IMG/VR virus record: IMGVR_UViG_3300032282_005473
Location: 1-21,725 of that record
Source of the DNA: a virus
Strand: one strand, 5' to 3'
Length of the DNA: 21,725 nucleotides
Shown: piece after piece, positions 1,066 through 17,087 of the stretch
How positions within the stretch are numbered: position 1 is the first letter of the stretch
Layout: each line of letters opens with the position of its first letter
The notes under the pieces: model-generated
What the model saw: the letters and a program-made list of their open reading frames with translations, nothing else
Told to the model about the DNA's origin: nothing
Database searches by the model: none
Program-made: the position numbers and the translations under genes

Positions 1066-1491
1066 TTAAGTTTCAATTAAACCTTCTACGTCTTCACCAT
1101 TTATATAATCAGTTAATATATTATAAACTAATTCAAAATATTTTGTACTGTACCAATCTATAACTTCAATAACGTATTTAAATCTAGGTGTTCTTATAAG
1201 GGTGACATTATCGTGGTCCTCATTTTTTGAAATATCTACGGGAATTGAGAAATTTTCATCCCATTCAGGGGTTGCCATACCTGTATAACCATCTACACTC
1301 CACCAATACACAACACCATCAAATCTATCTTGGGAAATACTCCAACCTTTATATTCTTTAACCTTACTAATAACATCTACAATTATATCATATCGATGTT
1401 GGTCGTCTCGAACTAATTCAGGTTCACTAGTATCCACCCAACTAAAATCTTCTTCAGATTCTTTTAATATTTTCTTTATTAATTCTTTCAT
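1066..1491 (-). CDS. Unknown phage protein with N-terminal MK-LIKKILKE tag
   Basis: This 141-residue protein is not recognised. Residues 1-11 (MKELIKKILKE) match the neighbour downstream at 10 of 11 positions and end in LKE, which resembles the (L/I)xE cleavage signal of T4-type prohead proteases. The rest is acidic and rich in aromatic residues (GWSISQDRFDGVVYWWSVDG, then FKYVIEVIDWYSTKYFELVY), consistent with a small globular alpha/beta domain. It has no signal peptide, membrane segment or cysteine cluster. It starts 2 nt after the stop of the gene upstream and is followed 1 nt later by the Gp88-like gene, so it is translated from the same message. A role inside the virion is a guess based only on the tag and the neighbours. 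Confidence 0.8.
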   Translation of the reverse strand: MKELIKKILKESEEDFSWVDTSEPELVRDDQHRYDIIVDVISKVKEYKGWSISQDRFDGVVYWWSVDGYTGMATPEWDENFSIPVDISKNEDHDNVTLIRTPRFKYVIEVIDWYSTKYFELVYNILTDYINGEDVEGLIET

Positions 1492-1493
1492 TT

Positions 1494-2246
1494 TTAATCA
1501 GGTTTTTTATACCCTTTACATTGTGAAGGTGTTGGTCGACATCTTGGGTACTTGGATCTTTCTTCACCTTCTTGTCTACCACAAGATTTACACTTACCAT
1601 CACGACAAGTATTACAATCTACCCAACCCTTTGATTTACCCTGTCCACCTCTACGTTCAAACCAACCGTGTAAACCTTTTTCTTTTTCTTTTGAAAAATC
1701 TTTTTTAGGTGCTTCGTTTACAGATTTAGATTTTGTCTCCTCACCTCTTGCTCTTTTTTTTCTAGCCGCACAATGAGCTTTTTGACTAAAACCTTTGGGG
1801 TTATTACAGTTTATACTTTTTTTATAATCTTTTGACCATTTTTCGTTTAATTCTTCTTTAATCAAATCGTCAAAACTTACAATAGCATCACCACTAGCAT
1901 CTGTTCTAACTAATACTTCACGTTCTTTTGGGTAAATAGACACTACCTTTACTACTCTTTTTTCAATGCCACCCTGTGTTTTGACGTTCACGTTTTTATA
2001 AACGTCCCCTATTTTTGGGGTTTCTGTTAGATCTTCGTACTCAGTATTTTCCATCAAAGTATCTAAATCATATTCTAAATCTTCATTCTTCCAAATTTTA
2101 CCTTGACGACATTTAACAACCGCACCTGATGCGTAAGCAGAAGGCCAAACATCGTATTTACGTTTTGCAATACGTGTACAACGGTCACCCGCTTTTTTCT
2201 TTTTTTTAGCCTCTTGTAGGAGTACTTCTTTGATTATATGTTTCAT
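1494..2246 (-). CDS. Lysine- and cysteine-rich phage protein with N-terminal tag
   Basis: This 250-residue basic protein begins MKHIIKEVLLQEAKKKKK. I chose ATG 2246; a TTG at 2255 would add MVI but lies inside the upstream gene. After the tag comes a block CTRIAKRKYDVWPSAYASG with a following KCRQGKIWK, then an acidic middle, then a second basic block (KGFSQKAHCAARKKRARG). The C-terminus is a cysteine-rich module (GWVDCNTCRDGKCKSCGR, later YPRCRPTPSQCKGY) that could bind zinc. Similar lysine- and cysteine-rich modules occur, from memory, in tailed phages and in large eukaryotic DNA viruses as uncharacterised domains. The charge suggests nucleic-acid contact, for example packaging with DNA; this is inference. 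It lies 2 nt from both neighbours in the same operon. Confidence 0.8.
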   Translation of the reverse strand: MKHIIKEVLLQEAKKKKKAGDRCTRIAKRKYDVWPSAYASGAVVKCRQGKIWKNEDLEYDLDTLMENTEYEDLTETPKIGDVYKNVNVKTQGGIEKRVVKVVSIYPKEREVLVRTDASGDAIVSFDDLIKEELNEKWSKDYKKSINCNNPKGFSQKAHCAARKKRARGEETKSKSVNEAPKKDFSKEKEKGLHGWFERRGGQGKSKGWVDCNTCRDGKCKSCGRQEGEERSKYPRCRPTPSQCKGYKKPD

Positions 2247-2248
2247 AA

Positions 2249-2896
2249 TTACCAAAATTTACAAGACCAATAACCCGCAGTGGCTCTATCTTTTTTCTCA
2301 GAACATTTATGTCTTGCTCTAAAAGATTTCCTTCTTTCAGGATTTGATTTCTTAATTCTCATGTTTGGGTCACCAAAATTAACCTTCACAACATTACCTG
2401 AAGCGTTTTTAACACAAACAGAACGTTTTTTAGGACCGTCAGGTGTTAACCAAGGTTTACTCAAACCTCTGTTTGCACAAGCTCCTTTACCACCATCTTC
2501 GTTCATTGGTAATAACTCAGTAAAACCAAACTCATCAAAATGAATAACTCTGTCACCATGTTTTTGTAAATAAGATTCCATTTGTGGTTCCATCTCCATT
2601 TCATGATCATCACCATCCCCTTTAATTTCGTTCATTAAGAAATCAAAAACTTGGTCCATATTATTTTTAGCTTCAGCTATATGGTCTTGAGCCCAATCGT
2701 GTCCGTTTTCTAATATTTCTTCAATTTGATTTTCATCAAATTCTAATAAATACTCACACTGTCTTTTGATTTGTTGTAAGTTTGAAAAGAACATGTAACG
2801 TGAGCCACCTTCGTTGGTCATATCATCACCTTCTCTTATGATTTTCTTAACTAATTTTTCTATATCGTTTTCGTTTAACCTAATTACTTTTTTCAT
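2249..2896 (-). CDS. Phage protein with tag and C-terminal SFRARH/YWSC domain
   Basis: This 215-residue protein opens the leftward operon. Residues 1-22 are an amphipathic tag (MKKVIRLNENDIEKLVKKII) followed by REG, giving an IRE site like the (I/L)xE sites of the next three genes. Residues about 30-110 are acidic and probably helical. Residues 135-215 form a conserved-looking module: CANRGLSKPWLTPDG, then RSVCVKNASGNVVKVNFGDP, then ERRKSFRARHKCSEKKD, ending AGYWSCKFW. I have seen this SFRARH...YWSC module in many T4-like phage proteins of unknown function; the four cysteines and the histidine could chelate a metal. An ATATTTAT box lies 16 nt before the ATG. A packaged or structural role is inferred, not shown. 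Confidence 0.8.
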   Translation of the reverse strand: MKKVIRLNENDIEKLVKKIIREGDDMTNEGGSRYMFFSNLQQIKRQCEYLLEFDENQIEEILENGHDWAQDHIAEAKNNMDQVFDFLMNEIKGDGDDHEMEMEPQMESYLQKHGDRVIHFDEFGFTELLPMNEDGGKGACANRGLSKPWLTPDGPKKRSVCVKNASGNVVKVNFGDPNMRIKKSNPERRKSFRARHKCSEKKDRATAGYWSCKFW

Positions 2897-2912
2897 AAGA
2901 ATAATTTTATTT

Positions 2913-2920
2913 ATAAATAT
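2913..2920 (-). promoter_or_regulatory. ATATTTAT box upstream of the 2896 gene
   Basis: The minus strand reads ATATTTAT 16 nt before the ATG at 2896. The same octamer sits close upstream of several other genes, so it may be a phage-specific promoter element. Here it extends into the palindrome TATTTATA, so its direction is uncertain. Confidence 0.4.
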
Positions 2921-2940
2921 CCTAAGTATAATTACAATGC

Positions 2941-2948
2941 ATATTTAT
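2941..2948 (+). promoter_or_regulatory. ATATTTAT box 5 nt before ATG 2954
   Basis: The octamer is separated from the start codon by only 5 nt. If it acts like a -10 box, the transcript would begin at or within a few bases of the ATG, giving a leaderless or nearly leaderless message. Confidence 0.4.
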
Positions 2949-2953
2949 TGTAT

Positions 2954-3562
2954 ATGAACTTATCAAAAATATCATTAAATCTTTTAACGGAAGAAGTTTA
3001 TCTTCAAGGAATGGTTAATACTATGTATGAAAACATTATGAAAGAAGAAATAGAACCAAAAGAAAAACATTTGGTGAAGAAAGTTGCTGACGATTTTAAG
3101 TTAAACGCTGATTTTATTTTCACTTATAGTGTTGGTATTTCAGGTTTTATCGGTCCTGTTAAAACTCTTTTAGAAAATAAAGGAATAAATGTTACAGAGT
3201 ATGATGTAACACTTTTATTAATGGTTGTTATTTATATTTTATTGTCAAAATCAAATGAGGATATTAAAAAATTAATGGAAGGTTTAAAAGATAAAGGTTT
3301 GGATTCTGAAGTTAAACCTGTGTTGAGATTTGTTACAAAAACAATTGGTTTATTTAAAATTATAGGTAAAAAATTTGGTCTAGCAATTCAATCATTAACA
3401 GATATATTAGCATTCACATTTTTATCTGTCCCAGTTATGAATATTCTAAGGGATTTGGCTGACGATAAAGGTTTCAGTATTGACCGTGTAGATGATTTAT
3501 TAATGGGTTTAACATTATCTGCTGGAGCCTACACACTTAAAAATATTATGAAAAGAAAATGA
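2954..3562 (+). CDS. Unknown membrane-associated phage protein
   Basis: This 202-residue protein is not recognised. I start it at ATG 2954 (MNLSKISLNLLTEEVYLQG) rather than the in-frame TTG at 2948. The N-terminus is amphipathic and contains LLTE, again an (L/I)xE-like site. Hydrophobic stretches follow: FIFTYSVGISGFIGP, then VTLLLMVVIYILLS, then LTDILAFTFLSVPVMNIL, with a weaker one near the C-terminus, so it probably touches or spans a membrane. The C-terminus is basic (KNIMKRK). Its stop overlaps the start of the next gene by 4 nt (ATGA), so the two are translationally coupled. It is divergent from the tagged-protein operon at 2896. It could be a membrane-active virion protein or a host-modifying protein; nothing decides between them. 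Confidence 0.75.
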   Translation: MNLSKISLNLLTEEVYLQGMVNTMYENIMKEEIEPKEKHLVKKVADDFKLNADFIFTYSVGISGFIGPVKTLLENKGINVTEYDVTLLLMVVIYILLSKSNEDIKKLMEGLKDKGLDSEVKPVLRFVTKTIGLFKIIGKKFGLAIQSLTDILAFTFLSVPVMNILRDLADDKGFSIDRVDDLLMGLTLSAGAYTLKNIMKRK

Positions 3563-4008
3563 TAGTAGTTAATTTTGACCCACCTTTAGAAAGAAAAGAC
3601 TTTGAAATTGTTCTAACAAAGGTCCAAGAAATGTTTCCAGATTGGGAATGGTGTGGTAACACAGGTACGCCAACCGTTAAAAATAGAGAAAGAATTCTTT
3701 CAGGAGCTATGAAAAACCAAAACTCTTCTGGTTATGGTGCACCAATTTATACTGAGGAAATAGGTTCTTTAATATATTACGGTAGATTCAAACATTATGG
3801 TGAAGCTGATTGTTTGGCTTATAGTGGTGGTTGGAGTCAAGCCGACACTGATAGTTATATCAGACAAGGTCATGATGTTAAAGTTCTTGATGGTTGGGAA
3901 ATAGTAAGACATGGTAGTTTAGATACCGAAGATATTTTTAACTCTTTAAGTGAGTCTACATTAAAAAGAATCATTAAAGAATCTATTAAAGAGTCTAAGC
4001 TTTCTTAA
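3559..4008 (+). CDS. Unknown phage protein with C-terminal RIIKES tag
   Basis: This 149-residue protein is not recognised. Its body (residues 1-125) is compact, with several tryptophans and glycines (FPDWEWCGNTGTPT, GSLIYYGRFKHYGEADCLAY, SGGWSQADTDSYIRQG), suggesting a small folded domain. The last 20 residues, LSESTLKRIIKESIKESKLS, strongly resemble the N-terminal tags of the genes at 1064, 1491, 2246 and 2896 but sit at the opposite end. The start overlaps the preceding gene by ATGA. The 3' end overlaps the convergent gene at 3995-4225 by 14 nt, which leaves no room for a terminator. The shared tag suggests the protein goes to the same place as the tagged set. Confidence 0.8.
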   Translation: MIVVNFDPPLERKDFEIVLTKVQEMFPDWEWCGNTGTPTVKNRERILSGAMKNQNSSGYGAPIYTEEIGSLIYYGRFKHYGEADCLAYSGGWSQADTDSYIRQGHDVKVLDGWEIVRHGSLDTEDIFNSLSESTLKRIIKESIKESKLS

Positions 4009-4225
4009 CAACGTCTTTAACAAAAGTACGAAGTTTACCTTCACCCTCTAACATAATCTCAAATACGGGTACATTATTTGGGTACATCTTTCTTAAACTT
4101 TCGTCAGGTACCATCATAGAATCAATTTCATACATATCCATAACCTTACCCTTTAGAGGTGGGTTAAATGATGTGATTAATACATTATCGTTAATCCTAA
4201 AATTGTCAATCAATATTTTTTTCAT
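3995..4225 (-). CDS. Small unknown phage protein, possible SH3-like fold
   Basis: The gene encodes 76 residues from ATG 4225 (MKKILIDNFRINDNVLITSF); an upstream in-frame start at 4258 lies deep within the preceding gene and is unlikely. The pattern of short beta-prone segments (NVLITSFNPPLKGKVMDMY, then VFEIMLEGEGKLRTFVKDVV) suggests a small barrel of SH3 type, as in proteins that bind and modulate partners. I do not recognise the family. It overlaps the 3' end of the upstream gene by 20 nt and the convergent gene at 4008 by 14 nt, so it is part of a two-gene minus-strand unit. Confidence 0.65.
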   Translation of the reverse strand: MKKILIDNFRINDNVLITSFNPPLKGKVMDMYEIDSMMVPDESLRKMYPNNVPVFEIMLEGEGKLRTFVKDVVKKA

Positions 4226-4802
4226 TTTTAAAAACTTTTTTACCCCCACCAATGTCATAATAAATGTTAGACATTCTGAGTTCTGTGTTATTACCGGTAA
4301 AATTAATTAATTCTCCGTCATAGTAAACCTCACAGATTAAAGAACTTATAATAGCGTTTTCTTTTTCGTCTTGTATTTCTTTTTCTATAAATTTAAATTT
4401 ACTGAAATCAAAATCCTCTTTAGTTACAAAAACAACATCCATAAAGACGCCTTCTAATTTTTGTACAGAGGTCATAACAACTTCGTCAGTTATTGGGTAA
4501 TGATAACCCTCCAACTCAACCAATTCGATATCATTAAAACTATAACTATTTAAAACAGTTATAGGTAAATTTATTATCTCTTCATCATTCACGGCGACTA
4601 TTATATCACCATTTGTTATCCCGTAATCATGAAACTCTTGTGTAAAACCTTTTAACTTTCTCGAAATTTTTTTGTTTAAATTTTTAATCCATATGTTATC
4701 AAGGGAGTTCGAACTTTTCAGTTTGTTGTAATCTTTCTTTGTAACAATGCCCCTTACTGCATCGTAGCCTTGACCCGCAAGGGTAATTCTGACGATATCC
4801 AT
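4206..4802 (-). CDS. Unknown phage protein
   Basis: This 198-residue protein is not recognised. It begins MDIVRITLAGQGYDAVRGIV and is rich in alternating hydrophobic and charged residues, suggesting a mainly beta fold with no signal peptide or membrane segment. The middle region (GITNGDIIVAVNDEEIINLP) and the later VFMDVVFVTKEDFDFSKFKF look like paired strands. It is first in a unit with the small gene at 3995-4225, which starts inside its last codons. A minus-strand ATATTTAT box at 4900-4907 could drive it, leaving a leader of about 90 nt. Two short hairpins lie in that leader. Confidence 0.7.
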   Translation of the reverse strand: MDIVRITLAGQGYDAVRGIVTKKDYNKLKSSNSLDNIWIKNLNKKISRKLKGFTQEFHDYGITNGDIIVAVNDEEIINLPITVLNSYSFNDIELVELEGYHYPITDEVVMTSVQKLEGVFMDVVFVTKEDFDFSKFKFIEKEIQDEKENAIISSLICEVYYDGELINFTGNNTELRMSNIYYDIGGGKKVFKNEKNID

Positions 4803-4992
4803 TTTTTAATAAATTTATTAGAGATTTATTTTGCACCCCAAAGTTGGGTCGAAACATTTTGATATTTGAGAGGTTACTTAACATGGTTAAGTTTTTTTAA
4901 TAAATATCTTTCTAATTTTAAGTCTTAACTAGTCCACACTTAAATTTTAGTCAACTCTTGATTTTTAACTTAAAATCGACATATTTATTATT
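4803..4992. other. Divergent intergenic region with hairpins
   Basis: This 190-nt gap separates the minus-strand unit at 4802 from bS21. It contains the inverted repeats CCCAA-AG-TTGGG (4838-4849) and ACTTAAC-ATG-GTTAAGT (4876-4892), the latter followed on the plus strand by seven T residues. Minus-strand ATATTTAT at 4900-4907 and plus-strand ATATTTAT at 4981-4988 point at the two flanking genes. The second hairpin could terminate plus-strand read-through or be an operator. Confidence 0.4.
4981..4988 (+). promoter_or_regulatory. ATATTTAT box 4 nt before the bS21 start
   Basis: The octamer is only 4 nt upstream of ATG 4993. There is no purine-rich Shine-Dalgarno sequence in the 30 nt before the start, in contrast to what I recall for chromosomal Flavobacteriia bS21 genes, which have a strong one used for autoregulation. 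Confidence 0.4.
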
Positions 4993-5187
4993 ATGTTAAT
5001 AGTAAAAGTAAAAGAAGGAAAGGGTATTGAAAAGGCCCTAAAAGAATTAAAATCTAAAGTCATTAAAACTCGTCAAGTAAGAGAATTACAGAATAGAAAA
5101 GAGTTTGTTAAGAAATCTGTTAGAGTAAGAGAACAGAAAAAGAAAGCAATTTACGTTCAAAAGAAATTCAACCAAGAAGATAAATAA
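4993..5187 (+). CDS. rpsU: Ribosomal protein bS21
   Basis: This 64-residue basic protein has the bS21 layout: an opening beta segment MLIVKVKEGKGIEKALKELK, then a long basic helix (TRQVRELQNRKEFVKKSVRV) and a second helix (REQKKKAIYVQKKF). The length matches Bacteroidota bS21 (about 63-65 residues), and the positions equivalent to the EG-I--ALK-LK and R-L--RK-F-KPSV-R signatures are kept. bS21 binds the 30S platform near the 3' end of 16S rRNA and the mRNA exit channel. Phage-encoded bS21 is known in large phages, where it is thought to replace the host copy. The gene stands alone: its stop codon lies inside the palindromic terminator shared with the convergent lipoprotein gene. In Bacteroidota bS21 helps hide the anti-Shine-Dalgarno sequence, so this copy may retune start-site choice; that is inference. 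Confidence 0.9.
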   Translation: MLIVKVKEGKGIEKALKELKSKVIKTRQVRELQNRKEFVKKSVRVREQKKKAIYVQKKFNQEDK

Positions 5188-5218
5188 GAAAAAGGGACTT
5201 AAGTCCCTTTTTCTTATT
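5183..5218. terminator. Bidirectional palindromic terminator (GGGAC stem)
   Basis: This is a perfect 36-nt palindrome (18+18) with core GGGACTTAAGTCCC flanked by A and T runs, so it can act as an intrinsic terminator in both directions. It contains the stop codon of bS21 (5185-5187) and, on the other strand, the stop codon of the lipoprotein gene (5214-5216). Confidence 0.9.
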
Positions 5219-6149
5219 GAAGTCTCACCATCCACAATCTAGCGTCGGGTGAACTTGTAACCATGATGTTACTAAAATTAGCGTTATTTACAACCCAGTC
5301 GTTGATAAAAGTACCTTGAACTTGTCCACTCCAATCACCACCAAGAGTGGTAAAAGAATAAAGTGATAAACTTTTCATGTTATTACCTACAACACTACTT
5401 AGGTTATAAGTACGTGGTGTTGAACCATTAATTTTATACTGAGTATTAGAAACAAACTCTAAAGTATCACTAGGGTAAGTAGAAACAAAGTTTTGAATAA
5501 ACTTAGTTACAACCCATTTAGTACCAACCAAACTTGTAACTACAGGAGTAGAACCACCGATAACACCGTTATAACTGTAACCAGCTGGTACATTGGAAAG
5601 AACAGGTGTACCTGTGAAACCAACCTTAACAAAAGTTAACACTGTATAGAAAGAGTAGTTATAAGTTCCATCGTTACCTGTACTTTCAAATACCTTAACA
5701 TTCATATAATCATTGGTTGAACTCAAAACTTCGATATTACGAGCAGAACCATTTTCTAAACCATAAACATTAAAAATACCATTAGTGTTAACATTATAGT
5801 TGTAAGTAGAACCACCATCCAAAACAAACTGATTAGAACTGTTAAATTTCCAATTAGTTGAACCTTTAGTGATTATATCAATCGGTAACCAAGATGGTGA
5901 AAAAATATCAAGATTACTTGAGGTTTTAGATGGGCCAAAATGGTCGTAGTAAAAAGTTGTGTTGTTGTCAAGATTTTTAACAAATACACGACCACTATAA
6001 AGTTCCCAAGTATAACCAATAGGGTTAACATTAGATGGGTTGTTAACGGTAGTTTGAGGGTTAGCTGGTTCGATAACTTCTTTCTTACAAGAAGTAAAAC
6101 CAAATACTAATGAAACTACGATAAAGATGTTGAAGATAATGTTTTTCAT
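5214..6149 (-). CDS. Phage-encoded lipoprotein, large
   Basis: This 311-residue protein has a signal peptide (MKNIIFNIFIVVSLVFGF) and lipobox TSC with the acylated cysteine at position 21, followed by KKEVIEPANPQ. A Ser/Thr/Asn-rich mature part follows, with two beta-rich sections: about 45-190 (GYTWELYSGRVFV ... YSFYTVLTFVKVGF) and about 205-311 (GTKWVVTKFIQN ... YKINGSTPRTYNL). The GTKW...L-F...Y...Y pattern in the second section resembles lipocalin-like or META-type barrels of Bacteroidota lipoproteins. It would be exported by the host Sec pathway and anchored in the cell envelope. It has its own host-type promoter (TTTG-N19-TATATTTG). A plausible role for a phage lipoprotein is superinfection exclusion by shielding a receptor; this is inference. 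Confidence 0.8.
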   Translation of the reverse strand: MKNIIFNIFIVVSLVFGFTSCKKEVIEPANPQTTVNNPSNVNPIGYTWELYSGRVFVKNLDNNTTFYYDHFGPSKTSSNLDIFSPSWLPIDIITKGSTNWKFNSSNQFVLDGGSTYNYNVNTNGIFNVYGLENGSARNIEVLSSTNDYMNVKVFESTGNDGTYNYSFYTVLTFVKVGFTGTPVLSNVPAGYSYNGVIGGSTPVVTSLVGTKWVVTKFIQNFVSTYPSDTLEFVSNTQYKINGSTPRTYNLSSVVGNNMKSLSLYSFTTLGGDWSGQVQGTFINDWVVNNANFSNIMVTSSPDARLWMVRLQ

Positions 6150-6166
6150 AATATGTCCTTTTTTAT

Positions 6167-8170
6167 TTATACAAATATATCAATTTCTTCTTTCTTGGCA
6201 AAATTTACTTTAATCTTTTTAGGTAAATGATGGGTGTTTAAATACTCAACCAAATTTTCAACAATTTCTCTGTTAGTATCAGTTGGTACTAAATTACCCT
6301 TCTCAGGATATCTACCATGGTGTTGTCTAACTCGGTACCTCAATTCAGAAATTCTAATAACATCCGTAGTACCATCTTCGAATACCGCAATACATTTATT
6401 AATGTTACCAACGGTTATATCGTCCGCATTATAAATTGACTTGGTTCTAATATTACCGTACCATGATTCGGGTTGGTAGAATTCTACTGCCTCTTGGTAT
6501 GTGTGCTTACCTTCTTTGTTTTTACGATAAAATTTTGTTATTGGTGTACCAATTTCTACTGTCGAGCCTATACCATCACAATCTACGTGAAATATCCGTG
6601 AATCACCAGATTTAATACTGTTAGAATACCCACCAACACAATGTCCCATCTTTTTACCCTCTTGTCTCAAATCAATGGTGGTATTAAGTTCTTTAACACA
6701 ACCATTATGATTGAATTTTGAAAGGTCGATTTTTTGGTTTAATTCAACGCTACCAGCTATTTTGTCATCTTCAACAATTTTTAAGATAAATTCTTTAGTT
6801 AATTTACCGTTCCAAGTTTCTTTATATTTATCCCAATTAATGTTCTCTAAACTACCAATAATCCATTCACCTTCTTTGGAAGCCAAAGATTTGATGTATT
6901 TAACAATATTGTATTGTTCACGTATGGTTTCACAGTTCTTTAGTATGGCATTAACACCATAATGTTCCCTTGTGAATTTATCTATAAAATCAACATGTTT
7001 AATATCAAAGTCACACTTATGATAATTCTTTTTGGTTAAAATCATCATATGGGTAAATCTATTAGAATTGTAATAAGGTAAATCTACATAGTCATCATCT
7101 TTTTCATCAAATAACCAATCACGGTTGTTTTTATATACCCTACGAGACCAGTGGTCCTCAGTCATATCACCCAAGAAAACGTTTTTGTAGAATATTTTAT
7201 TGATTTTATCTTGTTCAGATTTTTTCTTAAAAGTATAAAGCAATTCCCAAACTCTTTTAAAGCTGTTGATTGGTCCAACATTTTCAATAATATCGAAATC
7301 CATTACCGAGTCGTATACCCATATCTGAACATCAGGGTTACGTTCATTACCATTATAATAAGTTTCCCTTAAGTTATAAGGTATTTCTTCTGAATTTTTA
7401 GGTTCACGGAGTATAAAATACTTTTCAACAAAGTCTTTTATTTTATCATATTTTTGTTTGGTTTCGGGACCAATTATCTTGGTCATTTGATGACTTTGTA
7501 AATGTTTGGATGCAACAGTCAAGAAACGCATTTCATGTTCAACATCACAATAAATATCTAATTCTTTCATTTTTTTATAAATCCTTATTGTGGTTTGGAT
7601 TGGTGCACAAGGATTTACAACCTTCATTTGTTTTGTTTTTAAGAAATCAACAAATTCAGGTGTATAAATAATCTTACCGTTAATCATATCAAGGCCTGCC
7701 TTACAGTTATTCAAGTCAAAACCTTCAATAATGACAAGTTCTTTTGATTTTGGTTTAACCCCTATAGTTCTATAACCATCTTCGTAGATATATTCTATAA
7801 TATTGAATATACCATCACGAGAATGTTTACTAACCCGCATTCTGGCACCAGTCTCTGAAACAAAAATACGACCGTAATTGTCGTCAACTATTTCAAGACC
7901 TTCTTCGTTTGTATAAGTTGTTGGATACCACACATCTTTAACAGGACTTAGATTACCATTTTCATGTTTTGGGATTGGTACTTGTGTGTAAACATCGATG
8001 TCGTTTATCACAATTTTACCACCATAAAGAAGATGGAATATGGTATTTGCCACAGAACCACCGGCAATAAAACTGTCTTTAACTTTAGAAATATCACCTT
8101 TACTGTTTAGTATATCTAATACTTGGTAGAACGTTTGTTCTGAATTTAGAAAATCTTCAATTTTTCGCAT
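6167..8170 (-). CDS. Nucleotidyltransferase-like protein with C-terminal PcfJ-like domain
   Basis: This 667-residue protein appears to be a fusion. Residues 33-60 read SFIAGGSVANTIFHLLYGG then INDIDVY: a GGS motif followed about 20 residues later by DxD, the catalytic signature of the polymerase-beta nucleotidyltransferase superfamily. A long middle section (about 170-450) is charged and aromatic-rich with no motif I recognise. Residues about 485-570 contain MGHCVGGYSNSIKSGDSRIF then GIGSTVEIG, the CVGGY pattern I associate with PcfJ-like proteins of phages and plasmids. The substrate of the transferase is not evident; tRNA, nucleotide or protein are all possible. It stands alone, after the terminator of the sulfotransferase cassette, with a possible promoter at 8190-8197, and has no dedicated terminator before the lipoprotein promoter. 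Confidence 0.75.
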   Translation of the reverse strand: MRKIEDFLNSEQTFYQVLDILNSKGDISKVKDSFIAGGSVANTIFHLLYGGKIVINDIDVYTQVPIPKHENGNLSPVKDVWYPTTYTNEEGLEIVDDNYGRIFVSETGARMRVSKHSRDGIFNIIEYIYEDGYRTIGVKPKSKELVIIEGFDLNNCKAGLDMINGKIIYTPEFVDFLKTKQMKVVNPCAPIQTTIRIYKKMKELDIYCDVEHEMRFLTVASKHLQSHQMTKIIGPETKQKYDKIKDFVEKYFILREPKNSEEIPYNLRETYYNGNERNPDVQIWVYDSVMDFDIIENVGPINSFKRVWELLYTFKKKSEQDKINKIFYKNVFLGDMTEDHWSRRVYKNNRDWLFDEKDDDYVDLPYYNSNRFTHMMILTKKNYHKCDFDIKHVDFIDKFTREHYGVNAILKNCETIREQYNIVKYIKSLASKEGEWIIGSLENINWDKYKETWNGKLTKEFILKIVEDDKIAGSVELNQKIDLSKFNHNGCVKELNTTIDLRQEGKKMGHCVGGYSNSIKSGDSRIFHVDCDGIGSTVEIGTPITKFYRKNKEGKHTYQEAVEFYQPESWYGNIRTKSIYNADDITVGNINKCIAVFEDGTTDVIRISELRYRVRQHHGRYPEKGNLVPTDTNREIVENLVEYLNTHHLPKKIKVNFAKKEEIDIFV
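6172..6202 (-). promoter_or_regulatory. Bacteroidota-type promoter of the 6149 lipoprotein gene
   Basis: Read on the minus strand, TTTG (6199-6202) and TATATTTG (6172-6179) are separated by 19 nt, matching the Bacteroidota primary sigma consensus TTTG-N19-21-TAnnTTTG. The site lies inside or beside the end of the preceding gene and gives a leader of about 15 nt. Confidence 0.7.
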
Positions 8171-8189
8171 GGATAGACTTTATTTTATA

Positions 8190-8197
8190 CAAATGTA
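8190..8197 (-). promoter_or_regulatory. TAnnTTTG -7 box of the 8170 gene
   Basis: The minus strand reads TACATTTG 19 nt before the ATG at 8170. The -33 region is only a T-rich stretch within the preceding terminator, so the match to the Bacteroidota promoter consensus is partial. Confidence 0.45.
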
Positions 8198-8206
8198 ATA
8201 ATAAAA

Positions 8207-8228
8207 AAAGGGACTAAAAAGTCCCTTT
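8207..8228 (-). terminator. Intrinsic terminator of the sulfotransferase cassette
   Basis: AAAGGGACT and AGTCCCTTT form a 9-bp stem with a 4-nt loop, followed on the minus strand by a T run. It lies 4 nt after the stop of the DUF2061 gene at 8233. The stem shares the GGGAC core with three other terminators in the window. Confidence 0.85.
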
Positions 8229-8232
8229 GAAA

Positions 8233-8667
8233 TTATTTTTTAATTTTTACAAATTTGTACCAAAATCTTTCATGTAAAAAGTAAATAAAAGGTTTTATCA
8301 ACAATTCACCCACACCTATTAAAGCCGATACTTGAATCGAGGCTCCTAAAAAATAAGCTGTTAAGATAGTCACAATGGTTGCCACACATCTATAAGTTAA
8401 AGTTTTTAGTATGTGTCTAAACAATACAGACTCTTCTTTAATTGTCGTAATGTAGGCAACATTGTTTCTTACTTCACAATGACCAACACAACTAATATGG
8501 TATTTAAAATCTCCAATCTCTGGCATCCAATCTTTTGTGGTACGGGTATGTCCATCAACTATAACATTAGAAACTAAAATTTCATTTCCATCTTCAATTA
8601 ACCGCCATCTTTCATCTTCAGTTTTAGAAACTGTATTGTATCTTATTTGATAAGTTTTACTTTTCAT
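8233..8667 (-). CDS. DUF2061 membrane protein with cytosolic N-terminal domain
   Basis: This 144-residue protein has two parts. Residues 1-80 are a soluble beta-rich segment (YQIRYNTVSKTEDERWRLIE ... VRNNVAYITTIKEES) that I do not recognise. Residues 82-144 match DUF2061: RHILKTLTYRCVATIVTILT, then YFLGASIQVSALIGVGELLI, ending KPFIYFLHERFWYKFVKIKK. That domain is two short membrane helices ending in a conserved YxLHERxW motif. DUF2061 proteins often lie in sulfate-assimilation gene clusters, from memory, which fits its place as last gene of a cassette with APS kinase and sulfotransferase. It overlaps the upstream gene by 11 nt. A role in sulfate supply or in membrane anchoring of the pathway is inferred. 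Confidence 0.85.
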   Translation of the reverse strand: MKSKTYQIRYNTVSKTEDERWRLIEDGNEILVSNVIVDGHTRTTKDWMPEIGDFKYHISCVGHCEVRNNVAYITTIKEESVLFRHILKTLTYRCVATIVTILTAYFLGASIQVSALIGVGELLIKPFIYFLHERFWYKFVKIKK

Positions 8668-9115
8668 TCGTCAGATAATCGATGACTAATTGTTGGATGG
8701 ATGTGTCTACCATATTTTTCCAAGCACTGTCACCATTTTTTATCGAGTCCCTTATTTTTGTTGCTGATATAAAGCCTATATTATCAGGTGGTGTAAATTC
8801 ATTTATTTCATAACCAACACCTCTACCATAATTAACGGATTCAATATCAGGTATTATTATTACTTTGACATCATCACCTTTTGATTGATGGTATTTTTCT
8901 ATCATTTCAACCGTTTGTTTAGTTGTAAACGGATTTTTCTCATCAGGTTCAATATCCCTAACCATGATTAAAGCAGGGATACCTTCTTTTAATTTTTGGT
9001 TTATTAACTCAATATGTCCAAAGTGGTATGGTTGATATCTACCGATAAAAATTGCGTATTTTTTATCCTTGTTCGAGGTGGGATCACCACCGTGATTTAC
9101 TTTACTCCAATTCAT
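8657..9115 (-). CDS. HxGH-superfamily nucleotidyltransferase
   Basis: This 152-residue protein has the two signatures of the HxGH nucleotidyltransferase superfamily: GRYQPYHFGH at residues 25-34 and ISATKIRDSIKNG at 116-128. Between them lie VRDIEPDEKNPFTTKQTVEMI, reminiscent of NadM-type nicotinamide mononucleotide adenylyltransferases. Members join a nucleotide to NMN, pantetheine phosphate, sugars or sulfate; ATP sulfurylase belongs to the same superfamily. The gene overlaps the APS-kinase-like gene by ATGA and the DUF2061 gene by 11 nt. Context therefore favours a step in sulfate activation, while the motifs favour an NMN-type adenylyltransferase. I cannot settle which. The first 18 residues are extra and probably disordered. 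Confidence 0.85.
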   Translation of the reverse strand: MNWSKVNHGGDPTSNKDKKYAIFIGRYQPYHFGHIELINQKLKEGIPALIMVRDIEPDEKNPFTTKQTVEMIEKYHQSKGDDVKVIIIPDIESVNYGRGVGYEINEFTPPDNIGFISATKIRDSIKNGDSAWKNMVDTSIQQLVIDYLTNEK

Positions 9116-9540
9116 TTTCTATTAAAAGGTATTAAATTTAAACATTCCTCAATTGTTTTATTAGTTGTGTCCATGTCAATAAACTCTTCGGTTGGGATTT
9201 CAAAATCTTTGACGAAGAAATTTTCTCTACCTCTAATTTCATCGGTATGTACAAATACCTCAATAACTTTGTTGGTTTTCTTTAAAGAATCTCTCATCTC
9301 TCTATAGGGTGCTACAACTGAAACCACAACAGTAAAACCTTTATAGTCTAAGAATCGACACAAATCTAAAACAGATTGGATGTTCTTTCTTCTACCTTCT
9401 TCAGAGTAGTCAAAATTTTGGAATAGTTCTCTTAAACCATCCCCATCGATGTGAATACAAGTATCACTACTTCTTTCAATCATTGCTGTTGCTAGAGTTG
9501 TCTTACCAGCACCAGGTTGTCCACAAAACCAATAAATCAT
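9112..9540 (-). CDS. APS-kinase-like (CysC-like) protein
   Basis: APS kinase phosphorylates adenylyl sulfate to PAPS, the donor for sulfotransferases. This 142-residue protein has a Walker A motif (GQPGAGKTT, residues 7-15), HIDGDGLRELF matching the LDGDNVR motif, RRKNIQSVLDLCRFL matching ENIRRIGEVAKL, and VVAPYREMRDS matching ISPYRADRD. EVFVHTDEI followed by GRENFFVKDFEIP aligns with the region that contains the lid. It is about 50 residues shorter than typical CysC (around 200) because the lid and ends are trimmed. It overlaps both the sulfotransferase gene upstream and the nucleotidyltransferase gene downstream by ATGA. A related P-loop kinase with another substrate is possible, but the context supports PAPS production. 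Confidence 0.85.
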   Translation of the reverse strand: MIYWFCGQPGAGKTTLATAMIERSSDTCIHIDGDGLRELFQNFDYSEEGRRKNIQSVLDLCRFLDYKGFTVVVSVVAPYREMRDSLKKTNKVIEVFVHTDEIRGRENFFVKDFEIPTEEFIDMDTTNKTIEECLNLIPFNRK

Positions 9541-10358
9541 ACGTATTTAAATTCGTCAAAAAACCATTTATAACTTTGTTTAATTCTATCGTAAGAATTA
9601 AAACCTAAAATCTCTCTGTGATCATTCTTTAGAGGTTCTATTTTGGATTTTATGGTATGGTCACCATAGATACCATGAACAGAATCATCTTCAAATGTTA
9701 TTTGCTGTACATTATTAAAGTCGTGACCTTCAAAATAAGGCAACTCTAAATAATCATACACACGTCTTATTTCTTTCTCTGGGTTGTCACAAAGGTCTTC
9801 AAAACGAATAAATAACATTTTTTCATTAATACCTTCATGGAAAATTTGTTGTAATCTTTCTACGGCTAATCCGATTGGCGGTGTGTTCGACCAATACTCA
9901 ACTCTCTTATCTGTTGTTGTATTTTTCATTTTACCGTGTTCAACCATATTAGGATCTGTATGTTGACTTTTTCTAAAATTTTTTTCCATCGATGTGTAGA
10001 TACCCCTTAAATCCCTAACCATACAAATAACTTTAGGGTTTGGATAAAAGGAATTTAAAAAATTATAATGAATACCCCAACCACGACTTTTATCTAAAAT
10101 ATAAGGTTTATCAGTTATACCATCGAAAAATCCTTCTAACCCATTTTTACAATAAGATAAAAAGGCCTTTTTCATTAATTCAGAATCTTGTGCTTTGAAT
10201 TCTGGTGAGTTGGTGTAATTACTTCTTGAAGCGTAAAGTAATTCTAATACTCCTGATGTTGGTGTTACATAAAACTCAGGGTTTTGTCCCATTACATTTT
10301 GTAATAAGGTTGAACCTGCTCTAGGGAGAGAGGATTGGAAAAATATTTTTTGATTCAT
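9537..10358 (-). CDS. Sulfotransferase family protein
   Basis: This 273-residue protein carries the 5'-phosphosulfate-binding loop FFQSSLPRAGSTLLQNVMG (residues 6-24) and a 3'-phosphate-binding element VICMVRDLRGIYTSMEKNF (110-128, with R115 and S123 as the expected contacts). LYIRFEDL-type residues appear as MLFIRFEDLCDNP. It should transfer sulfate from PAPS to a hydroxyl or amine acceptor that the sequence does not identify. It is the first gene of a four-gene overlapping cassette and lies 38 nt downstream of the gene after the tail fibre. Likely acceptors are host surface glycans, lipids, or tail-fibre glycans or tyrosines; all are inference. Sulfotransferases are a recurrent accessory gene of large phages. 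Confidence 0.88.
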   Translation of the reverse strand: MNQKIFFQSSLPRAGSTLLQNVMGQNPEFYVTPTSGVLELLYASRSNYTNSPEFKAQDSELMKKAFLSYCKNGLEGFFDGITDKPYILDKSRGWGIHYNFLNSFYPNPKVICMVRDLRGIYTSMEKNFRKSQHTDPNMVEHGKMKNTTTDKRVEYWSNTPPIGLAVERLQQIFHEGINEKMLFIRFEDLCDNPEKEIRRVYDYLELPYFEGHDFNNVQQITFEDDSVHGIYGDHTIKSKIEPLKNDHREILGFNSYDRIKQSYKWFFDEFKYV

Positions 10359-10396
10359 AAAACAATTATATATAAAAAAAAAGAAAAGAGAATATT

Positions 10397-10936
10397 TTAT
10401 TTATTTTTGATGATAACATCAGTTTTATTTAGGAAAGGACTTTCATTTTTAAATGTATAACCTATTTTAGTTCTGTTTATTGTAAGTAAATTTTCTATTA
10501 ATTTTTGGGTATAATTATTTACTTTGTTTTCAGCATTTTGAGCTAAGTCCCCATTTATTTGTGTTTGTTGTACATCATTTAAAATATTACCAATTGTTTT
10601 ACCGGTTGTTACTATTTGACCTATCATACCAATAGAATCTTTTACATCAGAAAAAACATTATCAACACCCATTTCTTTATTTAAATCAGATATTATTTTT
10701 TCTACTAAATCACCATTTTCAATAGACACAATAAATGTTCTAATTTTATCCTCTAATTTTTTTAACTCATCTTGATCACCTTTTCTTTTATTCTCATTAA
10801 TTTTTTTCAAATCAGAGTTGTGTTCGTTAATTTGTTTTTTAACCACTAAATTTAACTTTTTTAACACATCTTCACTTATACCGTTGGTTCTGTGTAATGA
10901 TGTGAGTCTTTTTGTATCTGTTTTTTCTATTGCCAT
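10397..10936 (-). CDS. Unknown helical phage protein next to the tail fibre
   Basis: This 179-residue protein is charged and largely helical. Residues about 25-75 (LNLVVKKQINEHNSDLKKIN, then KGDQDELKKLEDKIRTFIVS) look like a coiled coil. The middle (DSIGMIGQIVTTGKTIGNIL) is mildly hydrophobic, and the C-terminus is polar (FKNESPFLNKTDVIIKNK). I do not recognise the family. It starts 57 nt after the stop of the tail-fibre-like gene on the same strand, so a role as fibre chaperone or attachment protein is reasonable but unproven. Confidence 0.7.
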   Translation of the reverse strand: MAIEKTDTKRLTSLHRTNGISEDVLKKLNLVVKKQINEHNSDLKKINENKRKGDQDELKKLEDKIRTFIVSIENGDLVEKIISDLNKEMGVDNVFSDVKDSIGMIGQIVTTGKTIGNILNDVQQTQINGDLAQNAENKVNNYTQKLIENLLTINRTKIGYTFKNESPFLNKTDVIIKNK

Positions 10937-10993
10937 ATTTTTTTTAATTGTAAACTATTACATTTATTGGTTTATAAATTTGTGTCTGTTTTA

Positions 10994-13720
10994 TTATGAT
11001 GTTACTCCAGTAATTACCAAATTATCAAGAGTATCATAGTAACTTAATCTTAATATTGGTGTTGTGTTGTTGAAAATGATACAAGTGTAGTTACCATAAA
11101 CATGTGTTGCTGATGTAAAATCAATTCCGATTACCGGATATTGTATTGTATTCGTAGTAAAATTACTAACTAAAGTGTTACTCTGGAAATAGTTGAAAAA
11201 ATTGTTACTAATACAAGAATCCCCAATGATATTATCATAACAAAAATTACCAAAAACGTTATCATAACAAGTACTATTAATTGTATTACCAGCGGAAAAA
11301 AACAAACCAAAGGACTCCCCAAGTATGTTACCAGAAAAATCACCGTTTGTTATATCATTCCCAAACATACTGTTAGCTTTATTTGATAAACAGTTGGGTC
11401 CAAAGGTATTAAACCAAGAAACATCACCAATAACATTATCAGCGAAGCCAGTATCTATTTGGTTTACGTTAAAAAAATAACCTATTGTGTTACCACCAAA
11501 ATAATTGTTAATTACGTTTGATTGGAACAATGATCCGATATTATTGTAATTAAAATTATCCCCAAATATGTTATTGTTACAACCAAAACCAATTTTATTA
11601 TTATAGTACCCACCACCACCGGTGTCAAATGTCGCGTTGTAGGTAAAATCGGTACTAATTTCATTACCGATAAAATTAGCTCTAATTAAATTACCACCAT
11701 TACCTGTGTCTGGCGTTTGAACGTCGATTCCGAAGTAACTACCTATTATGTTATCTTGAAACCTTTCTAAAATTATATTTGAAAGTCCGGAAGTCATATC
11801 ATTACCAAAATAATCACCAATTCTATTTCTTTCAAATCCAACACCAACAACATTTTTTAAGAAATAATTACCAATAACATTATCTTTTGGACCATAAACC
11901 AACAAAGGAGTTGGTGGGGATGATAAAGTTAAAACATCTGTAACCGTGGCGTAAGTATCCACGCCATCATCAATTATATCATTGGGTATTAAATCACCGA
12001 TAATAACCTGTAAATACATATCACCATCTTCACCTGTCATACCCGGGTAATTATTTGTAATTTCGGCAGTACCACCTATACCATTATCTATACTTGTACT
12101 ACTTGCAAAAGGGTTTAATCCTGTAATTTCTAAAGTACAATTACCACCACCACCTGTTACAGTTACAGTTTCATTGATTCCGTAATATGTACCGGCTGAA
12201 TTAATAGTAACACCTGTCACACCTCCAGCACTTGTAGTAATATTAACGACAAACCCAGAACCAGAACCACCTGTTGTTGTGTTAGTACCATCAACATAAC
12301 CAGTACCAAGGTTTGTTATACTAACACTAGCTATTGGAGCGTATACATTATTGTATATCAACCTTGTGAAGGTTGCCATTTTGTTACCACGAGGGACACC
12401 TGAACTATCAAGACCAAAATAATCACCTATTTTATTTCTTTCGGTTTCACGGCCAAAAATATTTGATTCGCCGTCAGGACCACCGCCACAATAATTACCT
12501 ATAATATTTTCTTGAAATTTTACACCAAAAATATTATTTGTACATTTATAACCAATTACATTTAATAAAAAGCTATCGTCAACAGTGTTGTAACTAAAAT
12601 TAGATCCAATTTTGTTTTGTGCAACCGAATTTCCAATAGTGTTTGCATAAAAGTTAGCTTCAATATTATTGTATTCAAAATAATCACCTATATTATTGTT
12701 ATAACCCGATTCTATGTGGTTGTGGATACAATTATTACCAAAAATATTATTTGTTGATTTAAAAACGTAACTGTAGTTAGGATCTGGGTCACCTATATAG
12801 TTATTATTACAACTATCATTAAATGTAATAGATTCACTATAATCACCTTCTATTGATTGGCCTATATAAACTTCTTTATATGATTTATAATTACTGTAAC
12901 TTGAGGATCTATAAAAAACATAATTTTTTCCAGAAAAAATCGTACCTGAATAATTAGGATCAACATAAACACTAATATCCGTATCACTATTAACACTAGC
13001 TACTTTAACCCCAACTTCATACCCTAATTCTTTTTTAGTATCTAATAATAGTATATCACCAATACTAATTTCTGATAGAAATAAAGTACTAGAACCATAA
13101 ATTTGTCCAGTAGTACAATCATAATCAGTAATAAAACCTGTCTGAGCACCAAGATTTCTTTCATATACTTGGTAACGTTTAACAGGCATCTGAATATGAT
13201 CGTAAGACGTTCTGTTATTATTTTCATCTATTAATTCAGTAATTCTACCTTTAGCCGGGATACCCATTATTTCGGTTGAAGAGTAGTTTATGTCGTATTC
13301 GATTTTGTTAAATGAATCTACTGAGTCGTAGGCTCTTGTATCAATACTATTTACTGACGTTGCCAAAACGAATATAGGATTAGTAGATCCAAAAAAAGTA
13401 TCAACCGATGTTTTATAATTACCATCTATAAAAAAATCGGGTTTGTCAAGGATGGTTTGGAAGTCTGATATTTGATAGTAAGTACCTGGGGTCAAACTAT
13501 TAGAACCAATCATTGAAACTAAGTCGGCGTAAGTTGTGTCACTAACAGAACCTGCCTCCAAATTTACAATACTCCCATTTGGATTTAATTTTTCATAAAA
13601 ACCTGAATTTAAATCAACACCAACATAGTAAGTGTCTGTAGTAGCAGTCAAAGCACCAATGTCTTGTCCGTTAACATATACCGTAGTTTTACCGTTTTCT
13701 ATTTGTATTATTCTTCCCAT
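10994..13720 (-). CDS. Tail-fibre-like protein with tandem NxIGxxFxx repeats
   Basis: At 908 residues this is the largest gene in the window. Residues 1-30 (MGRIIQIENGKTTVYVNGQD) form a probable attachment segment, followed to about 270 by non-repetitive beta-rich sequence. From about 290 to 440 and again from about 620 to 870 the chain consists of roughly nine-residue repeats of the form N-x-I-G-x-x-F-x-x (NTIGNSVAQ, NKIGSNFSY, NIFGVKFQE, NIIGNYC), which should stack as a beta-solenoid. Between the arrays, around 465-540, lies a Gly/Thr-rich domain (SITNLGTGYVDGTN ... VTVTGGGGNCTLEI) of a type common in phage structural proteins. No enzymatic residues are apparent. A receptor-binding fibre or spike is the best reading. 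An ATATTTAT box lies 12 nt before the ATG. Confidence 0.85.
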   Translation of the reverse strand: MGRIIQIENGKTTVYVNGQDIGALTATTDTYYVGVDLNSGFYEKLNPNGSIVNLEAGSVSDTTYADLVSMIGSNSLTPGTYYQISDFQTILDKPDFFIDGNYKTSVDTFFGSTNPIFVLATSVNSIDTRAYDSVDSFNKIEYDINYSSTEIMGIPAKGRITELIDENNNRTSYDHIQMPVKRYQVYERNLGAQTGFITDYDCTTGQIYGSSTLFLSEISIGDILLLDTKKELGYEVGVKVASVNSDTDISVYVDPNYSGTIFSGKNYVFYRSSSYSNYKSYKEVYIGQSIEGDYSESITFNDSCNNNYIGDPDPNYSYVFKSTNNIFGNNCIHNHIESGYNNNIGDYFEYNNIEANFYANTIGNSVAQNKIGSNFSYNTVDDSFLLNVIGYKCTNNIFGVKFQENIIGNYCGGGPDGESNIFGRETERNKIGDYFGLDSSGVPRGNKMATFTRLIYNNVYAPIASVSITNLGTGYVDGTNTTTGGSGSGFVVNITTSAGGVTGVTINSAGTYYGINETVTVTGGGGNCTLEITGLNPFASSTSIDNGIGGTAEITNNYPGMTGEDGDMYLQVIIGDLIPNDIIDDGVDTYATVTDVLTLSSPPTPLLVYGPKDNVIGNYFLKNVVGVGFERNRIGDYFGNDMTSGLSNIILERFQDNIIGSYFGIDVQTPDTGNGGNLIRANFIGNEISTDFTYNATFDTGGGGYYNNKIGFGCNNNIFGDNFNYNNIGSLFQSNVINNYFGGNTIGYFFNVNQIDTGFADNVIGDVSWFNTFGPNCLSNKANSMFGNDITNGDFSGNILGESFGLFFSAGNTINSTCYDNVFGNFCYDNIIGDSCISNNFFNYFQSNTLVSNFTTNTIQYPVIGIDFTSATHVYGNYTCIIFNNTTPILRLSYYDTLDNLVITGVTS

Positions 13721-13732
13721 TAGCTTTTCTCT

Positions 13733-13740
13733 ATAAATAT
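13733..13740 (-). promoter_or_regulatory. ATATTTAT box of the tail-fibre-like gene
   Basis: Minus-strand ATATTTAT sits 12 nt before ATG 13720, back to back with the plus-strand copy at 13760-13767 that serves the divergent secreted protein. Confidence 0.4.
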
Positions 13741-13759
13741 ATCAATACTTTGTTTGATG

Positions 13760-13767
13760 ATATTTAT
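13760..13767 (+). promoter_or_regulatory. ATATTTAT box of the secreted protein gene
   Basis: Plus-strand ATATTTAT lies 17 nt before ATG 13785 in the 64-nt divergent gap with the tail-fibre gene. Confidence 0.4.
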
Positions 13768-13784
13768 CTAATAAAAACTGTCTT

Positions 13785-15470: not shown

Positions 15471-15474
15471 AAAT

Positions 15475-15507
15475 AAAAAACCCCTGAACAACCTTCAGGG
15501 GTTTTTT
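15475..15507 (+). terminator. Strong intrinsic terminator after the secreted protein
   Basis: CCCCTGAA and TTCAGGGG, with flanking A6 and T6 runs, form a 14-bp stem around a 5-nt loop, starting 5 nt after the stop codon. It can act in both directions. Confidence 0.9.
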
Positions 15508-15571
15508 GTAGGGCCGTAAGGTTTGTACTTATCGGGATCCACCACCTTGTTTTTCTAAACAAGGAAACAAG
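15508..15571. other. Convergent gap with two hairpins
   Basis: The gap holds CCTTGTTT-TTCT-AAACAAGG (15545-15564), which may end transcription of the HNH gene although it lacks a T run on the minus strand, and a weaker bulged hairpin formed by CCGTAAG and CTTATCGG. I see no gene or tRNA here. Confidence 0.45.
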
Positions 15572-16102
15572 TTAATCTTTATTAAAATTAGATATTAGTT
15601 TACAGAAAGTCAACATGTCTTCATGTGTCATATTGTTTTTAGCGTAATTACAGGCAATACTAATAAACTGTATATTATCTTTGATGTAACCTTTTTTCGA
15701 GTCTATCCTATCTAGTGAAGCTGTTGTTATACTACCACCTTTTTTTTGTGGATGATTTAATTTGACCCCACTATATACACAAATACCGTTTTGTTTTACC
15801 CATTGTTCTAACAAATCATCTAAAGTTATATCACATTCTTTGTCTCTACTTTTAGCTTTAGCCATATATCTTCTAAAACCGGTGTATTTATCCCTTTTAT
15901 TACCACTAAAGTTTATTAAATTATCTTTATGTAAATCAACATAGTTTAATAAATGTTCACTGTGTACCTTGCCGACACAACTTCGACTACAATAATTTTC
16001 TCTACCAATTTTCAAATTCCTGTCCACCTCTGACTTATCTTTTAAAAATTGTTTACCACAATTAGGGTTTGAACAGGTTACTTCTATTTGTTTTCTCTTC
16101 AT
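15572..16102 (-). CDS. HNH-type endonuclease downstream of the tmRNA gene
   Basis: I start this 176-residue protein at ATG 16102 (MKRKQIEVTCSNPNCGKQFL); a TTG 27 nt upstream is the only earlier in-frame start. Residues about 9-50 form a zinc-binding module with CxxxxC and a later CSRSC. The C-terminal part has the layout of phage HNH nucleases of the ASLDRID class: GICVYSGVKLNHP, then TASLDRIDSKKGYIKDNIQF, then NYAKNNMTHEDML. Such proteins are commonly free-standing or intron-linked homing endonucleases. It lies on the same strand as, and 84 nt beyond, the intron-bearing tmRNA gene, separated by the tmRNA terminator, with its own ATATTTAT box 5 nt before the ATG. It may mobilise the tmRNA intron, which has no reading frame of its own; this is inference. 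Confidence 0.82.
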   Translation of the reverse strand: MKRKQIEVTCSNPNCGKQFLKDKSEVDRNLKIGRENYCSRSCVGKVHSEHLLNYVDLHKDNLINFSGNKRDKYTGFRRYMAKAKSRDKECDITLDDLLEQWVKQNGICVYSGVKLNHPQKKGGSITTASLDRIDSKKGYIKDNIQFISIACNYAKNNMTHEDMLTFCKLISNFNKD

Positions 16103-16107
16103 ATTAT

Positions 16108-16115
16108 ATAAATAT
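16108..16115 (-). promoter_or_regulatory. ATATTTAT box of the HNH gene
   Basis: Minus-strand ATATTTAT is 5 nt before ATG 16102, the same spacing as at 2941 and 17075. Confidence 0.4.
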
Positions 16116-16157
16116 GACGACATCCACAAAAATTATCCTTATCCACATAAAACAAAA

Positions 16158-16432: not shown

Positions 16433-16630
16433 AACCCTCGTCTTGTTTCATCTTACTAATACCTTCTACATGCTTAGGATAAAGTTTTCTAACTTTCCAA
16501 AATAAATATACTTTTCACACCGCGTATATCAGGACGGTGATAGTAGTTCAACTTGGCCACTATGCCATCACTTTTTTGATAACCTTCTGTTCCTAGGTAT
16601 GTTATCTACCCGATGTAGAGTTTAATCTAA

Positions 16631-16696
16631 TTAAGCTACTACTTCTGCACCTTCAGTCACAAAGTGACCTACAGTTGCGTTTGCGAAAACATCGCC
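16631..16696 (-). other. Predicted tmRNA proteolysis-tag frame
   Basis: The frame after CTCGTAAAAA most likely resumes at GGC (16696) and runs 21 codons to TAA (16633-16631). The peptide starts GDVFANATVG and ends TEGAEVVA. The resume codon is set by analogy with Bacteroidota tags that begin Gly-acidic; the same frame is also open for several codons further upstream. Typical tags have about 8-12 codons and end in LAA. Two short hairpins (GCGA/TCGC and GTCAC/GTGAC at 16668-16656) lie inside the frame. Confidence 0.7.
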
Positions 16697-16810
16697 AGTT
16701 GAATTTTGAAAGTTGGTTTTTACGAGCCTACCTAACAAGTCTCGACATGCTTACTTACTACTAATAATGACCAATCAATACCGGTCACCCCCATAATTCA
16801 AAGAACACTA

Positions 16811-17082: not shown

Positions 17083-17087
17083 AATAT

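Follow-up and report, generated by a model that had tools for sequence, protein, structure and literature searches.

In many Bacteroidota the ribosome itself rations the host's bS21, by way of an unusually strong Shine-Dalgarno (SD) sequence in front of its gene. The locus described here—a bS21 gene carried by a phage and preceded by no SD—raises the question of whether a phage can feed its own bS21 into host ribosomes from outside this control. A phage copy that satisfied the sensor while evading this rationing would leave it to the host's regulation to carry out the replacement. The window, that is, the whole stretch of DNA analyzed, is an entire virus record from IMG/VR, 21,725 bases long.

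Identity and phage origin of the gene

A preliminary description, made from the letters alone, had reported a complete bS21 of 64 residues, and this is borne out by the open reading frame, which starts with ATG at 4993 and has a stop codon ending at 5187, together with a match of its product to Pfam PF01165 (36 bits, above the cut-off of 27; residues 4-56 aligned to profile positions 2-54 of 55). The PHROG family 'ribosomal protein S21' is matched at E 0.002. Closest among PDB chains are 9i5v_9 (E 2.5e-10) and 7jil_z (E 5.2e-10), 7JIL being the Flavobacterium johnsoniae ribosome (PMC9723584). The two-helix fold appears in the AlphaFold2 model (helices 12-34 and 41-63; mean pLDDT 82.9, pTM 0.39), with which Foldseek retrieved two bS21-sized E. 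coli ribosome chains, albeit weakly (E 0.64). The identity of the product as bS21, taken by itself, is practically certain, and its host is very probably a member of the Bacteroidota. The gene and its surroundings are laid out as follows.

4206 to 4802, minus strand: divergent upstream neighbor, 198 amino acids, no family found
4803 to 4992, plus strand: bS21 leader region, 190 nt, intergenic, no SD and no significant RNA structure
4981 to 4988, plus strand: ATATTTAT box, best read as a recurrent promoter-like element of the phage, 4 nt before the bS21 ATG
4993 to 5187, plus strand: phage bS21 (rpsU) gene, 64 amino acids, Tyr54 kept
5183 to 5218, minus strand: terminator-like stem that covers part of the bS21 stop codon region and reaches into the end of the convergent gene (one found; shuffles mean 0.3)
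5214 to 6149, minus strand: convergent downstream neighbor, 311 amino acids, lipoprotein-like start, no family found

Both neighbors lie on the strand opposite to bS21, the orientation used by Chen 2022 to describe lake-phage bS21 genes (PMC9723584). Among the matches listed, and counting neighbors of at least 80 amino acids, bS21 is divergent from its upstream neighbor at 119 of 128 viral loci and convergent with its downstream neighbor at 115 of 130. The window shares this lone-gene arrangement, but with different neighbors: the 198-residue protein has a single relative, on the L005 contig, and a tblastn search with a 667-residue neighbor for a clue to the host gave no relative.

The preliminary description had placed the gene on a phage and in a Bacteroidota setting, and both the closest PDB chains and the check proposed there—a search of bS21 families and a tree—support this. 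The tree comprises 88 rows, 41 viral and 47 chromosomal, hand-picked from 128 and 157 distinct proteins, respectively. The window copy lies within a starred clade of 35 rows, all of them phage (support 98/90), apart from bacterial bS21; such a phage-only clade was also the mark of the bS21 of Chen 2022, a correspondence in kind and not in named sequences. The row nearest to the window copy is L005. An alignment of just 64 columns, with 34 of the tree's 85 inner branches open, makes any finer placing unsafe.

L005, L398, and L404 are parts of one syntenic contig of 29,104 bases. Its nucleotide identity to the window is 82-97% across 1248-1846, 2049-8208, 16463-17389, 17489-18888, and 19704-21725, and 67% across 13907-15570. 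About 24 kb from its bS21, this contig encodes a partial major head protein (phrog_138, E 2.4e-17). Endonuclease VII/HNH-like proteins occur among the genes of the window; no terminase, portal, prohead protease, or capsid gene was detected among the window proteins scanned with Pfam and PHROG, and the whole window found no match in a phage collection. An ordinary chromosomal rpsU, named in the preliminary description as the contrary outcome, is not what emerged. That the window is host DNA miscalled viral, with an ordinary or a second chromosomal rpsU, is hardly credible: although no terminase or capsid gene was seen among the scanned proteins and SD-less bS21 paralogues do occur on chromosomes, those paralogues adjoin a sigma-factor-like gene and sit elsewhere in the tree, and the virus record, the all-phage clade, the head protein of the syntenic contig, and the endonuclease VII-like proteins all speak against it.

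Several other parts of the window are of interest in their own right. Positions 8209-13906 hold cytidylyltransferase-like, APS-kinase-like, and sulfotransferase genes along with a 908-residue repetitive protein; the syntenic contig lacks this block, its flanks being 208 bases apart there, and the block is a variable cassette. MgtC-like, cREC-like, and dihydrofolate reductase genes follow one another at 18905-20191, overlapping by a few bases. A 561-residue protein with a signal-like start (13785-15470) has no Pfam or PHROG match; its C-terminal stretch resembles the tail domains of type IX secretion in Bacteroidota. Similar short amphipathic N-termini ending near IIKE/ILKE recur in the window (1066-2896) and in its relative L404 (2814-4813, 6852-7223, 9709-10917, and 13510-13794), and resemble the capsid-targeting peptides that a prohead protease removes. 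A tRNA gene scan of the whole window found none.

The leader and its counterparts in phages and chromosomes

SD strength was scored as the duplexfold (ViennaRNA) energy of the leader from -25 to -3 against the 16S 3′ tail; as this program differs from that of PMC9976891, thresholds are roughly comparable at best. The leader of the window copy pairs at +0.1 kcal/mol, which amounts to no SD—as the preliminary description had it—and lies far from an extended SD (below -13 kcal/mol). Viral sources numbered 227: besides the window itself and 5 GenBank records, there were 221 loci from IMG/VR, some of which overlap as stretches of a single contig. From these, 220 bS21 genes were scored, 6 being dropped for a missing start or fewer than 60 bases upstream, and distinct combinations of protein and 40-nt leader came to 138, a sample and hence at least that many. 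Among the matches listed, the phage leaders have a median of +0.8, with 0/138 below -13, 1/138 below -10, and 2/138 below -7 kcal/mol. The single case below -10 is the megaphage copy L241 (15001-15198), with a fair SD at -12.1; L311 (2501-2692) scores -9.8. The two are adjacent in the tree (99/87) and may represent a lineage in which an SD was retained or reacquired.

Two chromosomal sets, which include paralogues and share at least one gene, were scored in the same way. The first (80 loci fetched, mostly Bacteroidales; 79 scored, one having too little upstream sequence) has 38/79 rpsU genes below -13 and 55/79 below -10 kcal/mol. The second draws on 99 genomes of a single GTDB order, Flavobacteriales, of which 92 yielded 98 places (90 scored, 8 not fetched), and has only 13/90 below -13; 77 of the 90 are not below -10, although 10 of these pair at -11.9 with an alternative anti-SD tail. 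Taken together, 51/169 chromosomal copies fall below -13 as against 0/138 phage copies among the matches listed (Fisher p 1.6e-15, relatedness ignored). Phage bS21 copies are without an extended SD almost without exception; many chromosomal copies are also without one. The window's genes in general fit the same pattern, none of the 27 examined having a strong SD (median -0.6, minimum -6.6; a mock region was stronger, median -2.7), in a set whose gene list and starts were chosen by the analyst, with one start (gene 15572-16129) misplaced. For Flavobacteriales, SDs are reported to be rarer than expected by chance (PMC9976891).

The absence of an SD had been entertained as proof that the phage gene escapes host control. 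This argument is weakened by the Flavobacteriales sample and by the default of this phage: since SD-lessness is the rule among its genes examined and common in Flavobacteriales rpsU, a missing SD alone does not prove escape. The earlier suggestion of a copy lacking the host's control thus holds insofar as the extended SD is absent, and loses force insofar as that absence sets the gene apart neither from the genes of this phage in general nor from many chromosomal copies.

A second bS21 was observed in 4 of the 99 Flavobacteriales genomes, one of which has a third (L399:6991-8081, L400:7952-9041, L401:6763-7849, L403:8013-9099; also L402:6202-8015). The leaders of these second copies carry no extended SD (L214 +2.0, L215 -1.5, L235 -1.6, L234 -1.4; L221 -9.8), while the same four genomes have an extended-SD copy elsewhere, at -17.6 to -19.4. 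The second bS21 lies about 30 nt downstream of a 287-residue gene, and three such copies form a starred clade. The product of the 287-residue gene resembles an RpoD-type sigma factor, an arrangement reminiscent of the E. coli rpsU-dnaG-rpoD operon.

Short conserved boxes in the leaders of related phages were considered as a bS21-specific operator, a reading that was rejected. Across the first 68 phage loci, which total 521,128 bases, ATATATCAAAT occurs 48 times, each time in a bS21 leader; ATATATCAAATA occurs once per record in 20/20 records searched whole, these 20 of the 68 loci having been picked for carrying the box; and GTCAAAA is present in 72/138 phage leaders against 1.4 expected (among the matches listed). 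Read on the minus strand, the boxes become TTGAT/TTGAC, found in 123/138 leaders (among the matches listed), and downstream hexamers agreeing with TATAAT at 5 or more of the 6 positions show a sharp peak at 17-nt spacing, with 63 cases against 18 for the runner-up. Judged by sequence, the boxes in relatives are the -35 part of a promoter that drives the divergent neighbor. Such a sigma70-like promoter is seen in the bS21 leaders of most related phages (L002-L069, L245-L397), about 30-60 nt upstream of bS21. On the same strand, TATAAATA, the T4 late promoter consensus, is present in 34/138 leaders (among the matches listed). Unlike most of its relatives, the window has no divergent -35/-10 promoter in this leader: a minus-strand TTGACT (4954 to 4949) is present, but no matching -10.

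What the window leader does have is ATATTTAT, conserved in L005. It occurs 16 times on both window strands. Of the 14 window genes that have intergenic sequence upstream, 6 are preceded by it in sense orientation within 60 nt, at 12-25 nt from the start codon (shuffles mean 0.56, with 0/500 reaching 6). The box noted earlier 4 nt before the ATG is real but, being enriched before 6/14 genes, a recurrent element of the phage rather than a translation signal of bS21, and is best read as promoter-like. On this reading, transcription of bS21 would begin at the ATG or close to it. A search for sigma70-type promoters of bS21 in 4700-5400 returned 3 against 2.5 expected. RNA structure of the leader (4868-5010) is not significant (z -0.21); the L005 leader folds better than its shuffles (z -2.90).

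A possible bypass of the host's bS21 feedback

Whether such a gene could serve replacement depends on the protein. In a comparison of 128 phage and 157 host distinct bS21 proteins, K40, S42, R46, K51, A52, Y54, and Q56 are common to both groups, which are separated at positions 5, 8, 10, 18, 21, 23, 24, 28, and 33. Residues 18-28 carry a strong phage signature; at position 28, Q is found in 91% of phage proteins, and T, V, A, and I together make up about 91% of the hosts'. The window protein follows this division, with a diverged N-terminal half, a conserved C-terminal half, and the Tyr54 typical of Bacteroidota bS21 that sequesters the anti-SD. Tyr54 stacks on A1534 (PMC9723584), and all 127 phage proteins whose alignment row has a residue at position 54 carry Y, H, or F. 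A similar picture, Tyr54 in 54/61 phage copies along with N-terminal divergence, was reported by Chen 2022 (PMC9723584), some of whose phages may be among the IMG/VR loci surveyed here.

Of the two effects on ribosomes that the preliminary description had considered, retention in the sequestered state is favored, on sequence grounds, because the residue that holds the anti-SD is kept. The opposite effect finds no footing: that phage bS21 frees the anti-SD to the advantage of SD-bearing phage mRNAs is very improbable, as Tyr54 is kept and 0/27 window genes examined have a strong SD, the differing N-terminal half being the sole point in its favor.

In F. johnsoniae, loss of bS21 or of its C-terminus lowers initiation on SD-less mRNAs, whereas Y54A or C-terminal deletion raises rpsU translation; bS21-poor ribosomes favor the extended-SD rpsU, and replete ribosomes prefer SD-less mRNA (PMC9976891). 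Against this background, the phage bS21 would enter the 30S subunits of its Bacteroidota host, where its conserved C-terminal half and Tyr54 would keep the 16S 3′ tail sequestered, the state best suited to translating SD-less mRNAs, including the phage's own. The host senses bS21 in that poor ribosomes, with a free anti-SD, make more of it; having no extended SD, the phage gene would stand outside this sensor. Once phage bS21 fills the ribosomes, the extended-SD host rpsU would read them as replete and be repressed, and the SD-less phage gene would escape this repression, making replacement one-way and presumably beneficial to the phage. That the phage bS21 is competent for sequestration and lies outside the host's SD feedback is the reading we prefer, tentatively and at somewhat less than an even chance; it applies only if the rpsU of the phage's host has an extended SD.

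With its C-terminal half kept and its gene SD-less, the phage copy would be both favored by replete ribosomes and helping to make them. The fuller model built on this—phage bS21 satisfies the sensor, shuts off host bS21, and is favored by its own replete ribosomes, a self-reinforcing switch needing no protease or other helper—is possible, though rather doubtful. A phage protease and a host counter-defense have been suggested in PMC9976891. Against the replacement model, SD-lessness may reflect no selection for escape, and an SD of fair strength does stand before the megaphage copy L241 (-12.1), with its neighbor L311 at -9.8.

Two further explanations accept the protein as a working bS21. Late infection may simply need complete 30S subunits, so that a loosely bound, limiting bS21 is topped up with neither selectivity nor use of the feedback. 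A host-like C-terminal half with Tyr54 suits such plain supply, as does the co-expression of bS21 with structural genes reported for related phages (PMC9723584); the consistent N-terminal differences listed above exceed what it needs, and we consider it somewhat unlikely. The proposal of Chen 2022, that the diverged N-terminal half alters mRNA choice and favors phage mRNAs over host SD-less mRNAs, draws on precisely these differences, notably the residue 18-28 signature with its predominant Q28 and the N-terminal signature likewise observed in PMC9723584. However, the window genes share no leader motif beyond the promoter-like box, and no sequence handle for selection is seen, because the leaders of phage and Bacteroidota alike are A/T-rich and without SDs. 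The favoring of phage leaders over host SD-less leaders, raised in the preliminary description, receives no support from the present analysis, and ribosomes specialized in this way are unlikely.

Relation to known systems

Bacteroidota phage bS21, its Tyr54, and a proposed role in replacement have been published (PMC9723584, PMC9976891; also PMC6375957, PMC7162821). A search of the main text of openly accessible papers found none on the leader of a phage bS21 gene, and the near-absence of an extended SD across phage copies may be a new observation at the survey level.

A second bS21 that shifts translation according to leader type is reported from Francisella tularensis (bS21-2; PMC9578407, reviewed in PMC10931766). 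It differs in being chromosomal and in belonging to an SD-using bacterium; the likeness lies in the way of working. Closer in setting are the megaphages of Bacteroidetes, 634-735 kb in size, from Al-Shayeb et al. 2020 (PMC7162821; LR756502, LR756501, LR745206, LR756504), which also encode a bS21 of Bacteroidota type that shares 47-57% identity with the window copy. One of these is L241, with its fair SD; the other three of the four (L240, L242, and L243) group with chromosomal rows of the tree, which suggests separate captures.

The lake-phage bS21 of Chen 2022 (PMC9723584) agrees with the window copy in being Bacteroidota-type, with Tyr54 and a diverged N-terminal half, in standing as a lone gene opposite its neighbors' strand, and in falling in a phage-only clade. 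It differs in that the window copy has no terminase, portal, protease, or capsid genes as neighbors among the proteins scanned, and the window belongs to another lineage, for which a single syntenic contig was found. With F. johnsoniae rpsU (McNutt et al. 2023, PMC9976891), finally, the window gene shares the protein family and the anti-SD contact Tyr54, at 42% identity to the F. johnsoniae-like chromosomal copy L195. The two part company at the leader, where F. johnsoniae-like rpsU (L194/L195) carries an extended SD of about -20 kcal/mol as against +0.1 for the window, and in that the window copy is phage-borne.
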